NCBI RefSeq assembly: GCF_900313065.1
Contig: NZ_OMPU01000013.1
Coordinates: forward strand, 186,001 to 250,000
DNA: 64,000 bases
Direction of reading: 5' to 3'
Origin: Kiloniella sp. EL199
GTDB taxonomy: Bacteria; Pseudomonadota; Alphaproteobacteria; Kiloniellales; Kiloniellaceae
Notes under the pieces: model-generated
The model's input: only the letters and a program-made list of their open reading frames with translations
What the model was told of the DNA's origin: nothing
The model's database searches: none
In this document: one piece after another, positions 17,540 through 30,508 of the stretch
Position numbering within the stretch: position 1 is the stretch's first letter
How the letters are laid out: every line of letters starts with the position of its first letter
Made by a program: the position numbers and the translations under genes

Positions 17540-18271
17540 TCATTTTGAGGAATTTTCACAAGATTCAGCTTCACGCCAAAGCTTTATAAGATCGTGTCGA
17601 CGGCGTGGATATCGTGTAGGTATTTCAAAAAGGGTTTCAATACGATCCGTCCGAAAGTGGCGTATATCATCCCTTAACTCACACCATGCCGAAATAAGGC
17701 GACCGCCATTAAAATAGATCAAAAAAAACGGCCATATAACACGTTCGGAACTTTTACCCGCTCCATCGCGATAGTGAACAAGCAGCTTCCGTTCGTTTTG
17801 AATCGCCTGCCTCACCACCGTCATATCAATTGTCTCTTGATGAGATGGTTCGCCCTGTCCCACAACGGCATATTGAGCTTCCACGCGATCAACAAGTTCG
17901 ATCGGCATAACCGCTGTCAATCTAGCCATTGCCTTTCGCGCGGCTTCTGCCAATGGTGCCTCTGCCTTATCCGCCACCCAGAGCGACCCGAGAACCAGTG
18001 CGTCCACCTCTTCTGCCGTGAACATCACCGGCGGCAAAAGGAAACCCGGACGCAGGACATAACCAATACCGGGTTCCCCTTCGATGCCTGCCCCCAGCGC
18101 TCGCAGGGATGCGATATCCCGATAGAGTGTGCGGATTGATATACCCAATGCCTGCGCCAGATCATTTCCGGAAACGGGGCGGCGATGACGCCTGAATTCC
18201 TCTATCAAACTCAAAAGTCGTTCTGCGCGTGAAATGTTGACCTCCCTTGAAGTAATGTTACCGCCCCTCAA
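17540..18271 (-). CDS. YafY-type WYL-domain transcriptional regulator
   Basis: N-terminal DeoR-like helix-turn-helix (SRAERLLSLIEEFRRHRRPV then LAQALGISIRTLYRDIASLR). A C-terminal WYL domain follows, with HYRDGAGKSSERVIWPFFLI and LISAWCELRDDIRHFRTDRI. The open frame is given from a TTG at 18271, but that TTG has no ribosome binding site and sits in an intergenic repeat hairpin. The family normally begins MSRAERLL. An ATT codon at exactly that place (18233-18235) is preceded by AGGGAGG at ideal distance, so a rare ATT start is likely and the protein would be 231 residues. WYL regulators respond to small ligands or nucleic acids. Targets unknown; the NTF2-like gene downstream is one option. Confidence 0.9.
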   Translation of the reverse strand: MRGGNITSREVNISRAERLLSLIEEFRRHRRPVSGNDLAQALGISIRTLYRDIASLRALGAGIEGEPGIGYVLRPGFLLPPVMFTAEEVDALVLGSLWVADKAEAPLAEAARKAMARLTAVMPIELVDRVEAQYAVVGQGEPSHQETIDMTVVRQAIQNERKLLVHYRDGAGKSSERVIWPFFLIYFNGGRLISAWCELRDDIRHFRTDRIETLFEIPTRYPRRRHDLIKLWREAESCENSSK

Positions 18272-18400
18272 AAGGGCGTATTTGCGGAGTATTTGTACCG
18301 TCCCTCAAAAGGACGTATTTACGTTCAAACGCCACTAAGGCTTACCTCGCATAAGCTCGGACGTTCAGTCGAACTTGCCAAATTGCAGTACGCAATTTGG
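18259..18400 (+). repeat. Intergenic hairpin repeat, copy A
   Basis: Contains two tandem first hairpins (CGCCC/GGGCG at 18262-18278 and CGTCC/GGACG at 18299-18315, both with loop CTCAAAA). The conserved core CGTTCAAACGCCACTAAGG follows, then a second hairpin GTTC-AGTC-GAAC (18363-18374) and the last hairpin CCAAATTGC/GCAATTTGG (18378-18400). It overlaps the extended 5' end of the WYL regulator gene. Confidence 0.85.
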
Positions 18401-18431
18401 ATGGTAATTTATCCCCATAATTGAGCTCCAA

Positions 18432-18537
18432 CCAGATCCTATAAAGGATCTGGCAAGTGAAAACGCACGCCCGGAACGAAGTGAGGACCAGCCTCAGTGG
18501 CGCTTGAACGAGAATACGTCTTCTTCAAGAGACGGTA
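18432..18537 (-). repeat. Intergenic hairpin repeat, copy B (inverted)
   Basis: Same unit in opposite orientation to copy A, so the two are arranged tail to tail. Hairpin CCAGATCC/GGATCTGG (18432-18453), core GTTCAAGCGCCACTGAGG on the minus strand, and hairpin CGTCT/AGACG (18517-18534). It ends just 3' of the cupin gene. Confidence 0.85.
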
Positions 18538-18549
18538 AAAATAAAATCT

Positions 18550-19035
18550 TTACTTTTCACCGACGGGGCCGGTGGGGGTTTCGATGTTTTCTCTGTCCAC
18601 CAGTTGCCATGGCTTGCCGTCTTCACGGAAGATACGTTTATCCTTATGAGGATAATCAGCCATGTCAAAAGCGAGCCGTTGGCCGACAACGATGCATTTA
18701 AAGATTTCTGTGCCTGTGTTCGTAATCCCGTGGGCTTCACCACCAGCGCGGTAGCCAACAAAATCACCTTCACTGATCTGGTATTCTTCATCACCAATAT
18801 AGGCCGTAGCTGTGCCAGACAGAACATAGACACATTCATCTTCATGATAGTGTACGTGATATTCCGTTGTATCCCGGCCCGGCTCGACCTCTATAATATG
18901 AAAACCAAGACCCGTCAGGCCTGTGAGATCGCCGAGGGACTTGTTTGTACGCACAGCATTGGAATTGAGAAAATGCTCTTTTTCCGTGCCCTGCATCTGT
19001 TCTATTTCATGTTTTTTGATCAGATAGTTATTCAT
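18550..19035 (-). CDS. Cupin-domain protein
   Basis: 161 residues with one conserved cupin barrel. Motif 1 is YHVHYHEDECVYVLSGTATA, supplying His/His/Glu metal ligands; motif 2 is GDFVGYRAGGEAHGITNTG. Small single-domain cupins of this kind include sugar isomerases, dioxygenases and storage-type proteins; the substrate cannot be told. The C-terminal segment AFDMADYPHKDKRIFREDGK is typical of a subfamily often annotated only as cupin. GGGGGAG precedes the start codon. The isochorismatase-like gene lies 38 bp upstream on the same strand, so co-transcription with it and the LysE gene is likely. Confidence 0.88.
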   Translation of the reverse strand: MNNYLIKKHEIEQMQGTEKEHFLNSNAVRTNKSLGDLTGLTGLGFHIIEVEPGRDTTEYHVHYHEDECVYVLSGTATAYIGDEEYQISEGDFVGYRAGGEAHGITNTGTEIFKCIVVGQRLAFDMADYPHKDKRIFREDGKPWQLVDRENIETPTGPVGEK

Positions 19036-19073
19036 AGCTCCCCCGTTAATTTTTTTGTTTTAAAAGCCTGTGT

Positions 19074-19637
19074 CTAGATTTCCAGTGCCTGTGCTGCCTT
19101 GATAACCTGGCAATACTCACCATCCATATTGGCAAGTGACATATCGTGGACCTCCTGCGCAGATCGCAGGGTGCCGCTGTAGTCAGGAAAGGCAAAAGTA
19201 AAACAGGCGTCTTCTATCAAATAGGTCGTAAAGCCAAGATTACCAGCATGCCGCACTGTTGCTTCAACAGAGTTGTTGGTAATCACGCCCATCATCACAA
19301 CGTGATCAATTCCCTGATCCCGGAGCGTTTGTTCAAGCCTTGTGTCGATAAAAGCAGAGTTCGCCGCTTTGCCAATCACCACTTCACCGGATAGAGGCAT
19401 AACCTCGGGCTTAAAGGCATGAGTTTCCGTTCCCGGTGCATAGGTAGAATCAGCATTTACGCTATCGTGACGGATATGAAAGACAGAGCGCTTGGTATCG
19501 CGCCAGTACTTCAGCACAGCCGACATGTTTTGTTCCGCAGCCGGATTATTTCGGGGCCCATGCTGAGACCAGAAAGCTTCATCAATGGCTCGCTGCACAT
19601 CAATAATAACAAGTGCGGTGTTAGTGAGGAGTTTCAT
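19074..19637 (-). CDS. Isochorismatase-like hydrolase with Cys-to-Ser change
   Basis: 187 residues of the isochorismatase/nicotinamidase fold. LVIIDVQRAIDEAF supplies the catalytic aspartate and VVIGKAANSAFIDT the lysine. The nucleophile loop reads GVITNNSVEATVRHAGNLGF. Cysteine hydrolases have Cys where Ser stands here, so the protein may be a different subfamily or may not work by the usual thio-ester route. Its ATG overlaps the stop of the upstream LysE gene (ATGA at 19634-19637), so the two are translationally coupled. Confidence 0.88.
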   Translation of the reverse strand: MKLLTNTALVIIDVQRAIDEAFWSQHGPRNNPAAEQNMSAVLKYWRDTKRSVFHIRHDSVNADSTYAPGTETHAFKPEVMPLSGEVVIGKAANSAFIDTRLEQTLRDQGIDHVVMMGVITNNSVEATVRHAGNLGFTTYLIEDACFTFAFPDYSGTLRSAQEVHDMSLANMDGEYCQVIKAAQALEI

Positions 19638-20272
19638 GAAAATCGCCTTATAGCATCATAGGCTGCACCGACGCCAAGCAGGGTAAAAGTTGCGCCAAAG
19701 ACACCTGTAATCTGTCGCCGCGCAGCAACAAACTTCTGAACAACAAAGTCCGTAGAAAAAACTGTCGCGGTAATGGTATGGCCTGACACACCAAACACAA
19801 GACAAACGACAAGGATTTCTATCAATAATTCATTAGAGGCATTGGCAGGTACAAAAGCCGTTAGCACAGAGCCAAAAAACAATGCCGCCTTGGGGTTTGT
19901 CGCACAAATTATAAAACCGGAACGGAAGGCTTTAAAACCAGAGTTATCGGAATGATACAAAGACATATCCCCATTGGGCATGGTGAAAACGCTTCTAAAA
20001 GCCTTGAAGCCCAACCAAAGCAAATACCCCGCCCCCATCAACCGGAGACCAAGCACCACTTGAGGAAAAAGGTCAAACAGGGCAATCACACCGAGAACAG
20101 CCAATATTGCCCAAATAAAACTCGCCAGCGAAATACCCAAGCCCGTCAACACACCATGACGCCTCCCCTGACTGAGTGACGCGCTCATCACTGCAAACAT
20201 GTTTGGTCCCGGCGATAGCCACCCCATGATATTCACCAGAGCAATAGTAGAGAGAACGCTGAGGGTATCCAT
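19634..20272 (-). CDS. LysE/RhtB family exporter
   Basis: About 212 residues from the ATG at 20272 (AAGGAA upstream). The open frame extends further upstream only because it runs through the intergenic repeat; the extra 64 residues are repeat-encoded and should not be annotated. Six membrane helices; motifs GWLSPGPNMFAVMSASLSQG and FIICATNPKAALFFGSVLTA mark the family. It is coupled by a 4-bp stop/start overlap to the isochorismatase-like gene. The pair could detoxify and export a small compound; substrate unknown. Confidence 0.92.
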   Translation of the reverse strand: MDTLSVLSTIALVNIMGWLSPGPNMFAVMSASLSQGRRHGVLTGLGISLASFIWAILAVLGVIALFDLFPQVVLGLRLMGAGYLLWLGFKAFRSVFTMPNGDMSLYHSDNSGFKAFRSGFIICATNPKAALFFGSVLTAFVPANASNELLIEILVVCLVFGVSGHTITATVFSTDFVVQKFVAARRQITGVFGATFTLLGVGAAYDAIRRFS

Positions 20273-20300
20273 GGGAATGAGAGTTCCTTTTTTATTTTTG

Positions 20301-20441
20301 TACCGCTTCTCAAGAAAGCGTATTGCGGAGTATTTGTACCGTCCCTTAAGAGGACGTATTGCGCTCAAACGCCGCGCATGCTGGTCCTCGCTTCGCTGCG
20401 GGCGTCCGGTCGGACTTGCCAGATTGGGGGAATCAATCTGG
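20301..20441 (+). repeat. Intergenic hairpin repeat, copy C
   Basis: Two tandem first hairpins (CGCTT/AAGCG at 20304-20320, then CGTCC/GGACG at 20340-20356), joined by the same GCGGAGTATTTGTACC spacer as copy A. Core with CGCCGC paired to GCGGGCG, second hairpin GTCC-GGTC-GGAC (20404-20415), last hairpin CCAGATTG/CAATCTGG (20419-20441). Confidence 0.85.
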
Positions 20442-20451
20442 TTATGTTTGA

Positions 20452-20567
20452 TACCGTCATTCAAGAGGACGTATTGCGCTCAAGTACCGCGCATGCTTCT
20501 CCTCGTATTAACTCGGGCGCCCACTTATAGTCTCTGATGGGCTTGCCAAATCAAGGATTTGATTTGG
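20452..20567 (+). repeat. Intergenic hairpin repeat, copy D
   Basis: Tandem to copy C in the same orientation. First hairpin CGTC/GACG (20455-20471), enlarged second hairpin GCCCA/TGGGC (20519-20542), last hairpin CCAAATCAA/TTGATTTGG (20546-20567). It precedes the 3' end of the LysR gene. Confidence 0.8.
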
Positions 20568-20635
20568 AGATACCCAGTCTGTTGCCTAAACACTATAATT
20601 TCAACCCACTCCAACAACGAAAGGGGCAATGCCCC

Positions 20636-21538
20636 TTAGATAAAATGGTTTTCGGGCAGGTTGAATTTTTCCACCATGAAGTCCACGAAGACGCGGACTT
20701 TGGGAGACAGGTGGCGGCCGGGGGGATAGATAGCGTAGATGGCGCTGTCAGGGACATGGTAATCGGGCAGGACTTCGACGATATGGGCTTTCCGAATGGC
20801 GGGACCAACCAGCCAGAGAGGCAACAGACTGATGCCCATGTTCTTGCAGGTCAGGTCCATAATGACTTCGGGGTTGTTGGTTTCCACTGCGCCACTGACA
20901 TGAACCAGCTCTTCGCCCTCAGGTCCTTCAAACCGCCAGTCGTTGCGAAAAGCGCGCGAGGCGTAGATCAGGCAATCGTGGTCTTCCAGATCTTTCGGGT
21001 GCTTTGGTGCACCGTGTTTATTGAGGTAATCTGGCGAAGCACAGACCACCCGGCGGTTTGCCGCCAGCTTGCGCGCGATCAGGCTGGAATCTTCCAGATC
21101 CCCGATACGTACAGCAAGGTCATAACCTTCGCTGAGCAGGTCCACAAAACGATCCTGTAGATTAAGATCCAGTTTCATTTCCGGATAGAGGCTCATAAAT
21201 TCGGGAATAAGTTCGGTAATCCATAGACGCCCAAAAGCCACAGGCACATTGATTTTCAAGGTTCCCCGCGGCGCGGCATGCAGATTTGCCACCGCATCCT
21301 CGGCCTCTTCCACATCTACAAGGATTTGACAACAGCGCTCATAAAACCCTTTACCAACCTCGGTCAGGGAAAGGTGGCGCGTCGTGCGATTAAAAAGCCG
21401 CGCCCCAAGGCGATCTTCCAACCGCCCGACCTGCTTGCTCACCGCCGAAGGCGTCAAGGAAGCCGCCCGCGCAGCCGCCGAAAAGCTGCCCTCGTTCACC
21501 ACCTTCACAAAGATGCCCATCGCTGAAAGATTATCCAT
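20636..21538 (-). CDS. LysR family transcriptional regulator
   Basis: 300 residues, standard length. N-terminal winged helix-turn-helix (FSAAARAASLTPSAVSKQVG, about 18-37, then RLEDRLGARLFNRTTRHLSL) followed by a periplasmic-binding-protein-like effector domain (GTLKINVPVAFGRLW, LAVRIGDLEDSSLIARKL). This DsdA/AaeR-like subgroup typically controls small catabolic or efflux operons. No divergent partner is obvious: the gene upstream, a TIGR02391 protein, reads away. The LysE-isochorismatase-cupin row downstream on the same strand is a possible target, separated by repeat copies C and D. Confidence 0.93.
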   Translation of the reverse strand: MDNLSAMGIFVKVVNEGSFSAAARAASLTPSAVSKQVGRLEDRLGARLFNRTTRHLSLTEVGKGFYERCCQILVDVEEAEDAVANLHAAPRGTLKINVPVAFGRLWITELIPEFMSLYPEMKLDLNLQDRFVDLLSEGYDLAVRIGDLEDSSLIARKLAANRRVVCASPDYLNKHGAPKHPKDLEDHDCLIYASRAFRNDWRFEGPEGEELVHVSGAVETNNPEVIMDLTCKNMGISLLPLWLVGPAIRKAHIVEVLPDYHVPDSAIYAIYPPGRHLSPKVRVFVDFMVEKFNLPENHFI

Positions 21539-21736
21539 ATACTCATCCTGAGTCAGAATTTATTTGTGACATTAAGGAATAGATAGCAGGAATTTCATCA
21601 GGTGTAACGTTGTATTGGGAATGAATATATTTTATTGTTACCCTAAGATGAACATCTTAAACTCAAGCATCTCAAATTCTTCCAATCTTTACGAGACGTA
21701 AATTCGCACGATAACAATCACTTTAAGGTTTGTATC

Positions 21737-22543
21737 TTGAAGCAAAAATTATTCACTCAGAGCCAATTACAGTCCATATGCGATGCACTTGGACACACTA
21801 ATTTAGGCTTAACAGGTTCAGAAATTAGACATTTTTTGAATATATGCAAAATTGCTGATCTAGACCCAACCAACACAAAAAAGTTCCGCCTATTTAACGC
21901 TTTAGCAGGATGGCAAAATAAAAATTCAAGTCCTATCGGGATTAACGCATTCATTAGAAAATCAATGAAGCCAGAACTTTATATTAAAGACCCGGAACGA
22001 TATGATCTAATGCGACTAAATTTAAATAAAGCCCTTTTATTTAGCGGCTTATCTTTAAAAGCTAACGGTGAATTAGTAACAGCAAAACAAGTAAATACTC
22101 TTTCTGAGGCTCAGCGAAGGGCAACCCAATTAAGGGAAATTTTAATAACTAGAGAAGTCCATCCTGATATTCTTTCTTTTTGCAAAGAAGAATTAGTCGT
22201 TGATAACTATTTTCACGCAGTGCTTGAAGCAGTTAAAAGCGTTTCTGGTAAAATAAGAGTAAAAACAGGATTAACAGATGATGGTAACACTTTGGTAGAT
22301 AGAAGTTTATCAGGCGATCCTCCTCTTCTGGCCATCAACTCATTTCAAACCAGCACCGAAAAAAGCGAACAAAAGGGTTTTGCGAACCTAATACGGGGAG
22401 TTTTTAGCATGTTCAGAAACCCCACAGCACATGAACCAAGAGCAACATGGGAAATTACCAAAGAGGATGCTATTGATTTATTGTCATTGCTTTCGCTTAT
22501 CCACCGCAAGCTTGATAATTCGTATATGCCAAGAAGAAATTAA
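21737..22543 (+). CDS. TIGR02391 (Ymh-type) family protein
   Basis: 268 residues from a TTG start with AAGG upstream. The C-terminal half carries the family signature: [20 protein letters not shown], an RN-x(4)-HE type motif resembling HEPN-like RNase active sites, and [17 protein letters not shown]. The N-terminal half is not recognised. The gene is markedly more AT-rich than its neighbours (many AAA, TTA and ATA codons) and overlaps the 3' end of tdh by 4 bp in convergent orientation, which suggests recent acquisition. Family members are often seen near restriction and other defence genes, but no partner is visible here. Function not established. Confidence 0.82.
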
Positions 22544-23571
22544 CCCTGCCCCCAATCCAGTATCACCTTACCGGAGTTACCAGAACGCATGACGTCAAAG
22601 CCTTGCTGGAAGTCGTCTATGCTGTAGTGGTGGGTGATGATCGGGGTCAGGTCGAGGCCGCCTTGGATCAGGGCGGCCATTTTGTACCAGGTTTCGAACA
22701 TTTCACGGCCATAGATGCCCTTGATCACGAGGCCCTTGAAAATCACTTCGTTCCAGTCGATGCCCATACGTCCGGGGGGAATACCTAGCATGGCGATGCG
22801 ACCGCCGTGATTCATGGCGCCGAGCATCGAGTTAAAGGCAGGCTCACTACCGGACATTTCAAGGCCGACGTCAAAGCCCTCTGTCATGCCGAGATCGGAC
22901 ATGACCTCTTCAACCGAGCTTTCCGTGACATTGACGGCATGTTTGATGCCCATCTTCTTGGCCAGTTCCAGGCGGTAGGGATTTATATCAGTAATCACCA
23001 CGTGGCGCGCACCCACATGACGACAGATTGCCGCCGCCATAATGCCGATAGGGCCAGCGCCTGTGATCAGTACGTCTTCGCCAACCACATCAAAGGACAG
23101 CGCGGTATGAGCCGCATTGCCAAAGGGATCGAGGATTGCCGCGATGTCGTCAGAAATATCATCGGGCAGAATAAAGACGTTACTGGCAGGCAGGCAGAGG
23201 TATTCGGCAAAAGAGCCTGTGCGATTCACGCCCACGCCTTCGGTATTGCGACAGAGATGACGCCGCCCCGCCCGACAGTTGCGGCAATGCCCGCAGGTCA
23301 GATGACCTTCGCCCGAGACCCGCTGTCCGATTTCCAGATGTGAAACCTGACTGCCGACTTCTTCGATAGTGCCAACGTACTCATGGCCCACGGTCATGCC
23401 CACCGGGATCGTGGCCTTGGCCCAGTCATCCCAGTTATAGATATGTACATCGGTGCCACAGATCGACGACTTGCGGATCTTGATCAGAACATCATTGGGG
23501 CCGATTTCCGGTTTGACTTCATCGCGCATCCAGATGCCGGGTTCTGCCTTTAACTTCGCCAAGGTTTTCAT
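22540..23571 (-). CDS. tdh: L-threonine 3-dehydrogenase
   Basis: 343 residues. A zinc medium-chain dehydrogenase oxidising threonine to 2-amino-3-ketobutyrate with NAD. Visible: catalytic zinc motif [29 protein letters not shown], the structural zinc cluster [19 protein letters not shown], the Rossmann motif [12 protein letters not shown] and the C-terminal [17 protein letters not shown]. It lies downstream of kbl on the same strand, the classical kbl-tdh pair. The two genes are separated by 279 bp holding two inverted copies of the intergenic repeat. Confidence 0.98.
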
Positions 23572-23626
23572 ATCTAAACTCCAACCAGCCAGAGCTGATA
23601 TAATTATGTTAGTTTTGTAGTTTTTG

Positions 23627-23731
23627 TACCGCTTCTCAAGAGGACGTATTTTCGTTCAAGCGCCACTGAGGCTTACCTCCTATAAACTCGGGCGTCCGGT
23701 CGGACTTGCCAAATTGCGGTAAGCAATTTGG
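23627..23731 (+). repeat. Intergenic hairpin repeat, copy E
   Basis: Lies in the kbl-tdh gap. First hairpin is degenerate (CGCTT opposite GGACG). Core GTTCAAGCGCCACTGAGG, internal GAGG-CTTA-CCTC, second hairpin GTCC-GGTC-GGAC (23694-23705), last hairpin CCAAATTGC/GCAATTTGG (23709-23731). Confidence 0.85.
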
Positions 23732-23763
23732 TGATAGCTCTTACTTGTCTAATCTTGCGCCAA

Positions 23764-23850
23764 CCAGATCCTATAGAGGATCTGGCAAGTGCAAATGCAC
23801 GCCCGGAACGAAGTGAGGATAAGCCTCAGCGGCGTTTGAGCGTACAATAC
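23764..23850 (-). repeat. Intergenic hairpin repeat, copy F (inverted, truncated)
   Basis: Opposite orientation to copy E. Last hairpin CCAGATCC/GGATCTGG (23764-23785), second hairpin GTGC-ATTT-GCAC on the minus strand (23788-23799), core GCTCAAACGCCGCTGAGG. The first hairpin is missing because the kbl stop codon lies there. Confidence 0.85.
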
Positions 23851-29897: not shown

Positions 29898-30508
29898 GCG
29901 CCTTTCGCACACCAAATTTTAGAGGATACAAAGCCACGATCCTTCACAGGCATGATGATAATATTCGTCGACTAGAACGGCACCTTGATCGATTGGGTGT
30001 CGAAAGTACAGTCATCTGGCCTGACTTTAAAATAGACGACACTCCGCCAGATGTTATCTTTTTTGATGGCGATAACGGTTATGATGGTCTCTTCCCTTGG
30101 GCAAAAGGGTGCCCACCTGTTCCTCTCATTGCCCTAATTTCCAGTGAAGCACCCGGGCGGCTTGAATGGATGCTCTCACAAGAGACTTCAGCCCACCTTA
30201 TCAAACCTATTCAATCAAGCGGCGTATTCTCAACACTTGTAATTGCATGCGCAAATTATGAAAAACGACAAGAACAGTTGATACGAATAGATACATTGGA
30301 AAAAAGAATTTCCAGCCGTCCAGTCGTCTTTCGCGCACTACTTTTGATCATGGAGTGTGGTCACCTGCAAGACGAAGCCGCATTCGCCATCCTTCGGTCA
30401 GCAGCCATGAACAACCGCCAGAGTATCGAAGATTTCGCCTCTACCCTAAGCCATAGCCAGGCAGTCTCGCTTATAAACGACTTCTCGGCAGATAAGGGGA
30501 TGGCGTAA
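29894..30508 (+). CDS. amiR: AmiR-like ANTAR-domain antiterminator
   Basis: 204 residues. The N-terminal two thirds is a degenerate receiver-like domain lacking the phosphorylatable Asp pattern (VIFFDGDNGYDGLFPWAKG). A coiled-coil linker (NYEKRQEQLIRIDTLEKRIS) and a C-terminal three-helix ANTAR domain follow (RALLLIMECGHLQDEAAFAI then LRSAAMNNRQSIEDFASTL). ANTAR proteins bind paired hairpins in nascent RNA and let polymerase pass terminators. Translationally coupled to amiC. The likely RNA target is the structured leader at 28566-28687. Its stop overlaps the next ATG (TAATG). Confidence 0.88.
   Translation: MSAFRTPNFRGYKATILHRHDDNIRRLERHLDRLGVESTVIWPDFKIDDTPPDVIFFDGDNGYDGLFPWAKGCPPVPLIALISSEAPGRLEWMLSQETSAHLIKPIQSSGVFSTLVIACANYEKRQEQLIRIDTLEKRISSRPVVFRALLLIMECGHLQDEAAFAILRSAAMNNRQSIEDFASTLSHSQAVSLINDFSADKGMA

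Follow-up and report, generated by a model that had tools for sequence, protein, structure and literature searches.

Several families of short intergenic repeats, including ERIC/RU-1, RUP, Correia/NEMIS and YPAL, are less than 200 bp in size and combine terminal inverted repeats and target duplication with stable stem-loops, and most bacterial miniature inverted-repeat transposable elements (MITEs) have TA at their termini (PMC2229807, including Table 1). The CIR repeats of alphaproteobacteria, as described in the same source, are about 110 bp in size, intergenic, associated with GANTC, and built of two long inverted repeats, each forming an arm, with a linker between them; their mobility is described there as unclear (PMC2229807). 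Palindromes of the CGTC group of REPs are common in alphaproteobacteria, are reported without a dedicated transposase, and occur in inverted pairs or clusters (PMC3733652). The object of the present analysis was a repeat family found in a 64,000-nucleotide stretch of Kiloniella sp. EL199 DNA (contig NZ_OMPU01000013.1, positions 186,001 to 250,000; hereafter, the window), where six copies, A to F, share a conserved core and up to three hairpins. With a probability of about 0.78, these copies are MITE-type non-autonomous transposable elements, which have TACC/GGTA hairpin ends, insert into the target CTNAG, and duplicate TNA.

Among known kinds, the family stands closest to the two-armed alphaproteobacterial repeats CIR (Caulobacter/Brucella) and RIME (rhizobia), with which it shares its intergenic position, two arms joined by a linker, and an alphaproteobacterial range. 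Unlike CIR, whose mobility is considered unclear, the family has a measurable TNA duplication, and GANTC was found in 2 of the 113 cores of copies dispersed in genomes outside the genus and in none of the 39 same-genus cores. A core profile (E up to 10) gave no match in 150 of the 1683 kb of S. meliloti pSymB, for which the best E-value of the covariance model was 0.1; a structural scan of pSymB, which is a weak one (11 of 76 locus-strands detected among the loci of the carrier genome G046), found none. A 120-bp repeat of pSymB with two palindromes and CTAG-like ends (L374, ~2116-2235; L330, ~30043-30162), which we take to be RIME, is two-armed but unrelated in sequence. With GANTC and sequence similarity missing, the family is regarded as an unnamed MITE-like one with hairpin termini and a TNA target. 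It differs from other MITEs in the CTNAG target, the duplication of TNA, and terminal repeats that are each a hairpin around a conserved core; ERIC/RU-1, RUP, Correia/NEMIS and YPAL were set apart by their descriptions and by Rfam and literature searches. The GTAG/CGTC REPs resemble the family in their inverted pairs and clusters of palindromes, but these are single stem-loops of 20-40 bp tagged GTAG or CGTC, whereas the family has three hairpins, a size of about 100-150 bp, and target duplication. The preliminary description of the window knew of no named family with this pattern, and none was found: Rfam at gathering scores recovered only a tRNA in the window and, at E up to 1 in the six loci with copies, only an unrelated mir-188 match, while literature searches, including those with the core strings, yielded no paper on the family.

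Ends of the element and duplication of the target

The complete element, TACC-hairpin-core-hairpin-GGTA, was found in genomes G046, G059, G060 and others, with a size of about 130-150 bp in well-preserved relatives. Terminal inverted repeats (TACCRRNC..) were present at both ends of the dispersed relatives and were worn in the genus of the window. This terminal pattern occurred 57, 10 and 6 times in G046, G059 and G060, respectively, versus 1, 0 and 0 times when read backwards, and the core had 27 exact matches in G046, with none for the reversed pattern. Immediately outside TACC the flanks converge on C-T-N-R, and the same arrangement is mirrored outside GGTA. In the first set, consisting of 35 copies with both ends assignable (36 further copies with unassignable ends were dropped), the left and right N were the same in 27 copies (11.0 by shuffling, 0 of 100,000 shuffles) and complementary in one. 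In the larger set of 113 dispersed copies, both ends could be assigned in 60; of these, 44 had the same N (16.5 expected, 0 of 20,000 shuffles) and 4 a complementary one, and the whole 3-mer was identical in 20 (6.7 expected). The 35 copies recur in the larger set, and orthology links a few copies (e.g., L174 and L180), so these counts are not fully independent. Four control offsets further outward gave 14, 21, 26 and 14 agreements versus 14.3, 17.4, 20.3 and 14.9 expected. Because N is identical and not complementary on the two sides, a target duplication is indicated rather than a longer inverted repeat; the agreement of N is read as the duplication of TNA in CTNAG, the scar of transposition. 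One orthologous place, filled in G060 and empty in G059, agrees with this in outline, its flanks being too diverged for base-by-base reading. Terminal inverted repeats and target duplication were both found in the relatives, and the small size of the element is plain.

Each end (TACC.../...GGTA) is a terminal inverted repeat folding on itself (hairpins 1 and 3), with the core and hairpin 2 between them, and a putative transposase acting in trans would have placed the elements in CTNAG, duplicating TNA. TGA and TAA fit TNA, so that insertion at a stop codon, exactly where a good share of the copies lie, would leave the gene intact. Stop-codon copies numbered 21 of 48, versus a proportion of 0.167 for harmless CTNAG sites with the same gene caller; this is most simply accounted for if insertions that duplicate TGA or TAA survive because they do no harm. 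By the orientation of adjacent genes, the 55 dispersed copies were divided into 26 tandem, 23 convergent and 6 divergent (crude caller of open reading frames, ORFs). A TNA target is habitual for the IS1031 group of IS5, and our guess is that the mobiliser may be an IS5-group enzyme of this type. DDE transposase genes of PF01609/PF13586 were present in the eight genomes searched, with at most seven per genome having usable loci, and the insertion sequence in G046 had ends unlike those of the element. The copies of the genus would be old, with worn termini and no clean TNA duplication left; presumably inactive in transposition there, they would now spread and rearrange only locally (tandems, inverted pairs, the chimeric hairpin 1 of copy E) within one syntenic region by kbl/tdh.

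Several observations weigh against the assignment to transposable elements. The genus copies, including all six in the window, show no TNA duplication, and their membership is based on the core and hairpins. One of the outward control offsets was mildly raised (26 vs. 20.3, 925 of 20,000 shuffles), and an earlier end-finder, set at the wrong distance and replaced, gave agreement in 4 of 11 cases (shuffle p = 0.13). The 47 transposase loci inspected (PF01609, PF13586; eight genomes) had no TACC/GGTA terminal pair, and no autonomous element was found among them. In the genus genomes G003 and G007, the insertion at the isochorismatase/LysE site is flanked by at least 20 duplicated bases, which the 3-bp mechanism does not explain. 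A second null, composed of open frames of 80 codons, gave no enrichment of stop codons (33 of 54 vs. 0.657); the preference for stop codons thus depends on the null used.

Pairing of the stems and competing explanations

Covariation was assessed in 86 distinct copies (55 dispersed and 31 of the genus; effective number 20) placed in common columns, using mutual information with average-product correction over 2775 column pairs. Ranks 1-6 were occupied by hairpin-3 pairs and rank 7 by a hairpin-2 pair (c48-c55); further hairpin-2 pairs had ranks 15 (c47-c56) and 27 (c49-c54), and a further hairpin-3 pair had rank 25. Ranks 8-14 fell outside all three hairpins and were mostly adjacent loop-region columns separating subfamilies. 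Best pairing was the criterion for placing the right arm of hairpin 3, so that this hairpin is favoured in the ranking, whereas hairpin 2 came from plain alignment and is free of this effect. When the arms were re-dealt among copies, they paired far less (98.5 vs. 67.7% in the genus and 92.3 vs. 61.3% in dispersed copies). The covariation of hairpins 3 and 2 is clear. Hairpin 1 stood outside the ranking; 20 of 27 hairpin-1s of the genus paired at 5 of 5 positions (regular-expression search), and 980 columns paired in 77 distinct dispersed hairpin-1s. Of the compensatory changes originally proposed at three places, those in hairpins 3 and 2 were recovered.

In the window, hairpin 3 was intact in all six copies, with 8-9 pairs, and hairpin 2 was paired in all six, with one mismatch in B. 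Hairpin 1 was doubled in A and C, fully paired in B, paired at 4 of 5 positions in D and 2 of 5 in E, and absent in F, so the earlier statement that the stems stay paired holds for hairpins 2 and 3 and for hairpin 1 only in most copies. In E, this hairpin (CGCTT against GGACG) consists of the left arm of one type and the right arm of another. RNAalifold applied to the six copies alone gave 22 pairs, 7 of them changed on both sides, and the helix at the place of hairpin 1 differed from hairpin 1. Copies A, B, D and F folded singly better than their shuffles (z of -2.1, -3.8, -2.4 and -6.5, respectively), while C (-0.2) and E (-1.1) hardly did so.

The stems can have been kept by selection on RNA, by selection on DNA hairpins, or by palindrome correction. 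It may tentatively be proposed, at odds below even, that the elements are kept for a folded transcript, i.e., a structured RNA probably read from the hairpin-3-first (element minus) strand that offers a ready-made 3' end to a gene running into hairpin 3. The covariation of hairpin 2 in the plainly aligned core (c48-c55) is consistent with this, as is the excess of A.C over G.T among stem mismatches of the plus strand (81 vs. 28, p = 4e-7), which correspond to the G.U type on the minus strand and have the sign expected for an RNA folded from that strand. However, outside the stems the substitutions of the core leaned the same way (G>A 76, C>T 6), and a skewed mutation process therefore accounts for the mismatches equally well; the strand test is not decisive. 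Also in favour of a folded transcript, the hairpin-3 end coincided exactly with a stop codon in 25 of 54 copies, compared with 10 of 51 for the hairpin-1 end (p = 0.004); this difference was weaker when called genes were used (15 vs. 7 of 48, p = 0.088). A core hairpin CC-TC-GC..GC-TC-GG, seen by eye, has the variants GC/GC, GT/AC, AC/GT and longer ones, but shifts register between types and lies outside the ranked list; the negative Rfam result also speaks against a folded transcript. Slightly less probable, and on the whole unlikely, is that the matched stem changes arose by palindrome correction, that is, by template switching between arms during replication, with no need for selection. In G046, the arms of hairpins 1 and 3 of one element are alike, subtypes differ from each other by entire arm blocks, and two types are combined in hairpin 1 of E, all of which would fit such correction; on the other side, hairpin 2, with four pairs and a four-base loop, covaries as well, and the 8-9 bp hairpin-3 stems of the genus remained 98.5% paired despite the decay of half of the hairpin-1s and of the ends, although neither point is decisive. 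In the preliminary description, the compensatory changes were taken as an argument that a folded RNA or cruciform is under selection and that mere copying is not enough; this reading was not supported in that form. Because the relatives spread by transposition with TNA duplication, copying is instead the main story.

Movement of REP/BIME-type repeats by a RAYT (Y1) transposase is very improbable as an explanation of the copies: their inverted pairs and tandems resemble BIMEs, and Y1_Tnp genes were found in 10 of the 20 genomes tested, including that of the window and the carriers G033, G039 and G042, but none was found in the four carriers G046, G059, G060 and G025, and repeats of this class would not be expected to show a 3-bp duplication. 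A simple local duplication confined to one genome has still less to recommend it. The full copies of the own genome were found in the 6-kb cluster only (150 of 981 candidates scored by the model), so the confinement to this stretch on which the preliminary description would have given up its claim nearly obtains there; the family nevertheless exists far outside, at orthologous sites of five other species and, as dispersed relatives, in other families. Plain local duplication as the whole account was thus ruled out by the relatives, local copying being true as a secondary process.

Two core-only copies were found in the own genome on the minus strand of L386 (contig C12), at 882-958 and 1137-1219 (E = 5e-8 and 2e-6), immediately upstream of tRNA-Ile and in the tRNA-Ile/tRNA-Ala interval, and a third lay at 701-777 of L387 in G006 (E = 5e-7), near an apparent tRNA-fMet identified by eye. 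The core is found in rRNA-operon spacers as well. The core-only copies carry a covarying hairpin 2 (GGTC/GACC, GACC/GGTC). It is improbable, though conceivable, that the core is a portable structured minus-strand RNA which is also used in rRNA operons and has spread to the 3' ends of genes via stop codons. Both copies of the own genome read as the element minus strand in the direction of tRNA-Ile/Ala, and the G006 copy has the opposite orientation relative to the tRNA; among five other tRNA-Ile/Ala spacers, only that of Bosea gave a match, weak and partial (E = 0.019).

If the assignment to MITE-like elements is true, widespread unnamed intergenic repeats of alphaproteobacteria would gain a defined unit, ends, a target rule, and a reason for their position at stop codons. 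They would also form a natural set for the general question of whether matched changes in palindromes reflect RNA selection, DNA-hairpin selection, or palindrome correction. Annotation pipelines equipped with a covariance model of the core and three hairpins could label these sequences as repeats, which would otherwise pass for spurious short genes or small-RNA candidates.

Distribution of the family

In the order, 18 of 61 genomes, the own genus included, had matches at E up to 0.001, with at most 14 candidates scored per genome; in G012, G043 and G057, the matches comprised only part of the element. In the class, at least 14 of 385 genomes matched at E up to 1e-5, three of which are already in the order count; as two candidates were scored per genome, this is a lower bound. 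The only plasmid carriers found were those of Azospirillum, in which nine records matched copies of the relatives and four covered at least 80% of the query; the plasmid search with copy E as the query gave no match, nor did the phage search. The left core module (GCGTTCAAGCGCCACGCAGGCT) was found joined to other hairpins in L152 and L163 (G012), L364 (G060), and L328 and L329 (Azospirillum), and it occurs once as a tandem of ~103 bases; thus, the family is modular.

A BLAST search of the own genome (E up to 10) detected the cluster only, the two other matches being 14 bases long. The covariance model, built from five window copies (without D) and 18 copies from other genomes, retained only 6 base pairs and is therefore mostly a sequence model; in the own genome, it found the six copies and, at other places, the two core-only copies with weaker matches (150 of the 981 candidates of a first look were scored), and by both approaches full-length copies were seen in the 6-kb cluster only. 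Copies were present in five of the eight other genus genomes, almost all of them in the syntenic region that holds the window's cluster and many in the very same gaps, with a further copy on another contig in G008. The gene order was the same in G001 and G002, which had no copies (a single match with E = 0.4 in G002), and none was found in the 77% complete genome G005. The gap between kbl and tdh is ~103 bp and empty in G001; in the window, where it holds E and F, it measures ~279 bp. Since copy-free genomes retain the same gene order, the insertions either arrived later than the deepest splits of the genus or disappeared from those genomes, and multiplication within one neighbourhood followed. 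The gap between the isochorismatase and LysE genes is empty in the window and G006 and filled in G003 and G007 (L115, 10645-10870; L117, 14670-14870), the insertion site being the overlap of the isochorismatase start and the LysE end. A search for relatives with the tdh protein yielded gammaproteobacterial loci of no use for this comparison.

Copies in the window and their neighbours

The six copies lie within a few bases of the places noted originally, and the six-copy family with a shared core proposed there was confirmed, the covariance model recovering all of them, including D, which was outside the model (E = 1.8e-13), with the next match in the window at E = 0.59. In the orientation of A, the unit consists of hairpin 1 (TAC[C]N4-5...GTA), a core of ~60 bases containing hairpin 2, and hairpin 3 immediately after an invariant TTGCC; each copy has three hairpins except F, which is without hairpin 1, and E, in which hairpin 1 is broken. 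Copy A (18257-18400, plus strand) has two tandem hairpin-1 units, CGCCC/GGGCG and CGTCC/GGACG, followed by the core, hairpin 2 GTTC/GAAC, and hairpin 3 at 18378-18400. Copy B (18432-18543, minus strand) is inverted relative to A and begins with hairpin 3 (18432-18453), followed by hairpin 2, the core, and hairpin 1 CGTCT/AGACG. Copy C (20298-20441, plus strand) has the hairpin-1 units CGCTT/AAGCG and CGTCC/GGACG, the core, hairpin 2 GTCC/GGAC, and hairpin 3 at 20419-20441, and its direct tandem D (20447-20567, plus strand) has a hairpin 1 with one mismatch, the core, a longer hairpin 2 GCCCA/TGGGC, and hairpin 3 at 20546-20567. In copy E (23619-23731, plus strand), the chimeric hairpin 1 CGCTT/GGACG precedes the core, hairpin 2 GTCC/GGAC, and hairpin 3 at 23709-23731; copy F (23764-23850, minus strand), inverted relative to E, comprises hairpin 3 (23764-23785), hairpin 2 GTGC/GCAC, and the core, hairpin 1 having been lost. 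Thus, A/B and E/F are inverted pairs joined at their hairpins 3, and C/D is a direct tandem. The hairpin-3 types of A/B (window 18378-18453) occur in reversed order in G003 (L115, 9428-9483), as if the segment between the cores had been flipped.

All three groups of copies sit in gaps between minus-strand genes, which, according to the reading of their translations, are a cupin gene and the 5' end of a gene for a WYL-type regulator (A/B), LysR and LysE-type genes (C/D), and kbl and tdh (E/F). The single cluster brought an integron attC array into consideration; the host genes are conserved neighbours, not cassettes. For the WYL-type regulator (ORF 17540-18271, minus strand), the listed start is a TTG inside repeat A (site 18190-18271), whereas a Shine-Dalgarno-like GGGAGG and the reading kept in relatives point to a rare ATT start (ATT TCA CGC GCA GAA). 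The interval 21560-22540 of the window and the matching places in L115, L117 and L122 form a variable spot adjoining the repeats, between the LysR gene and tdh, where the extra genes differ by species: the window has one ORF there, G003, G007 and G008 have several others, and G004 has none.

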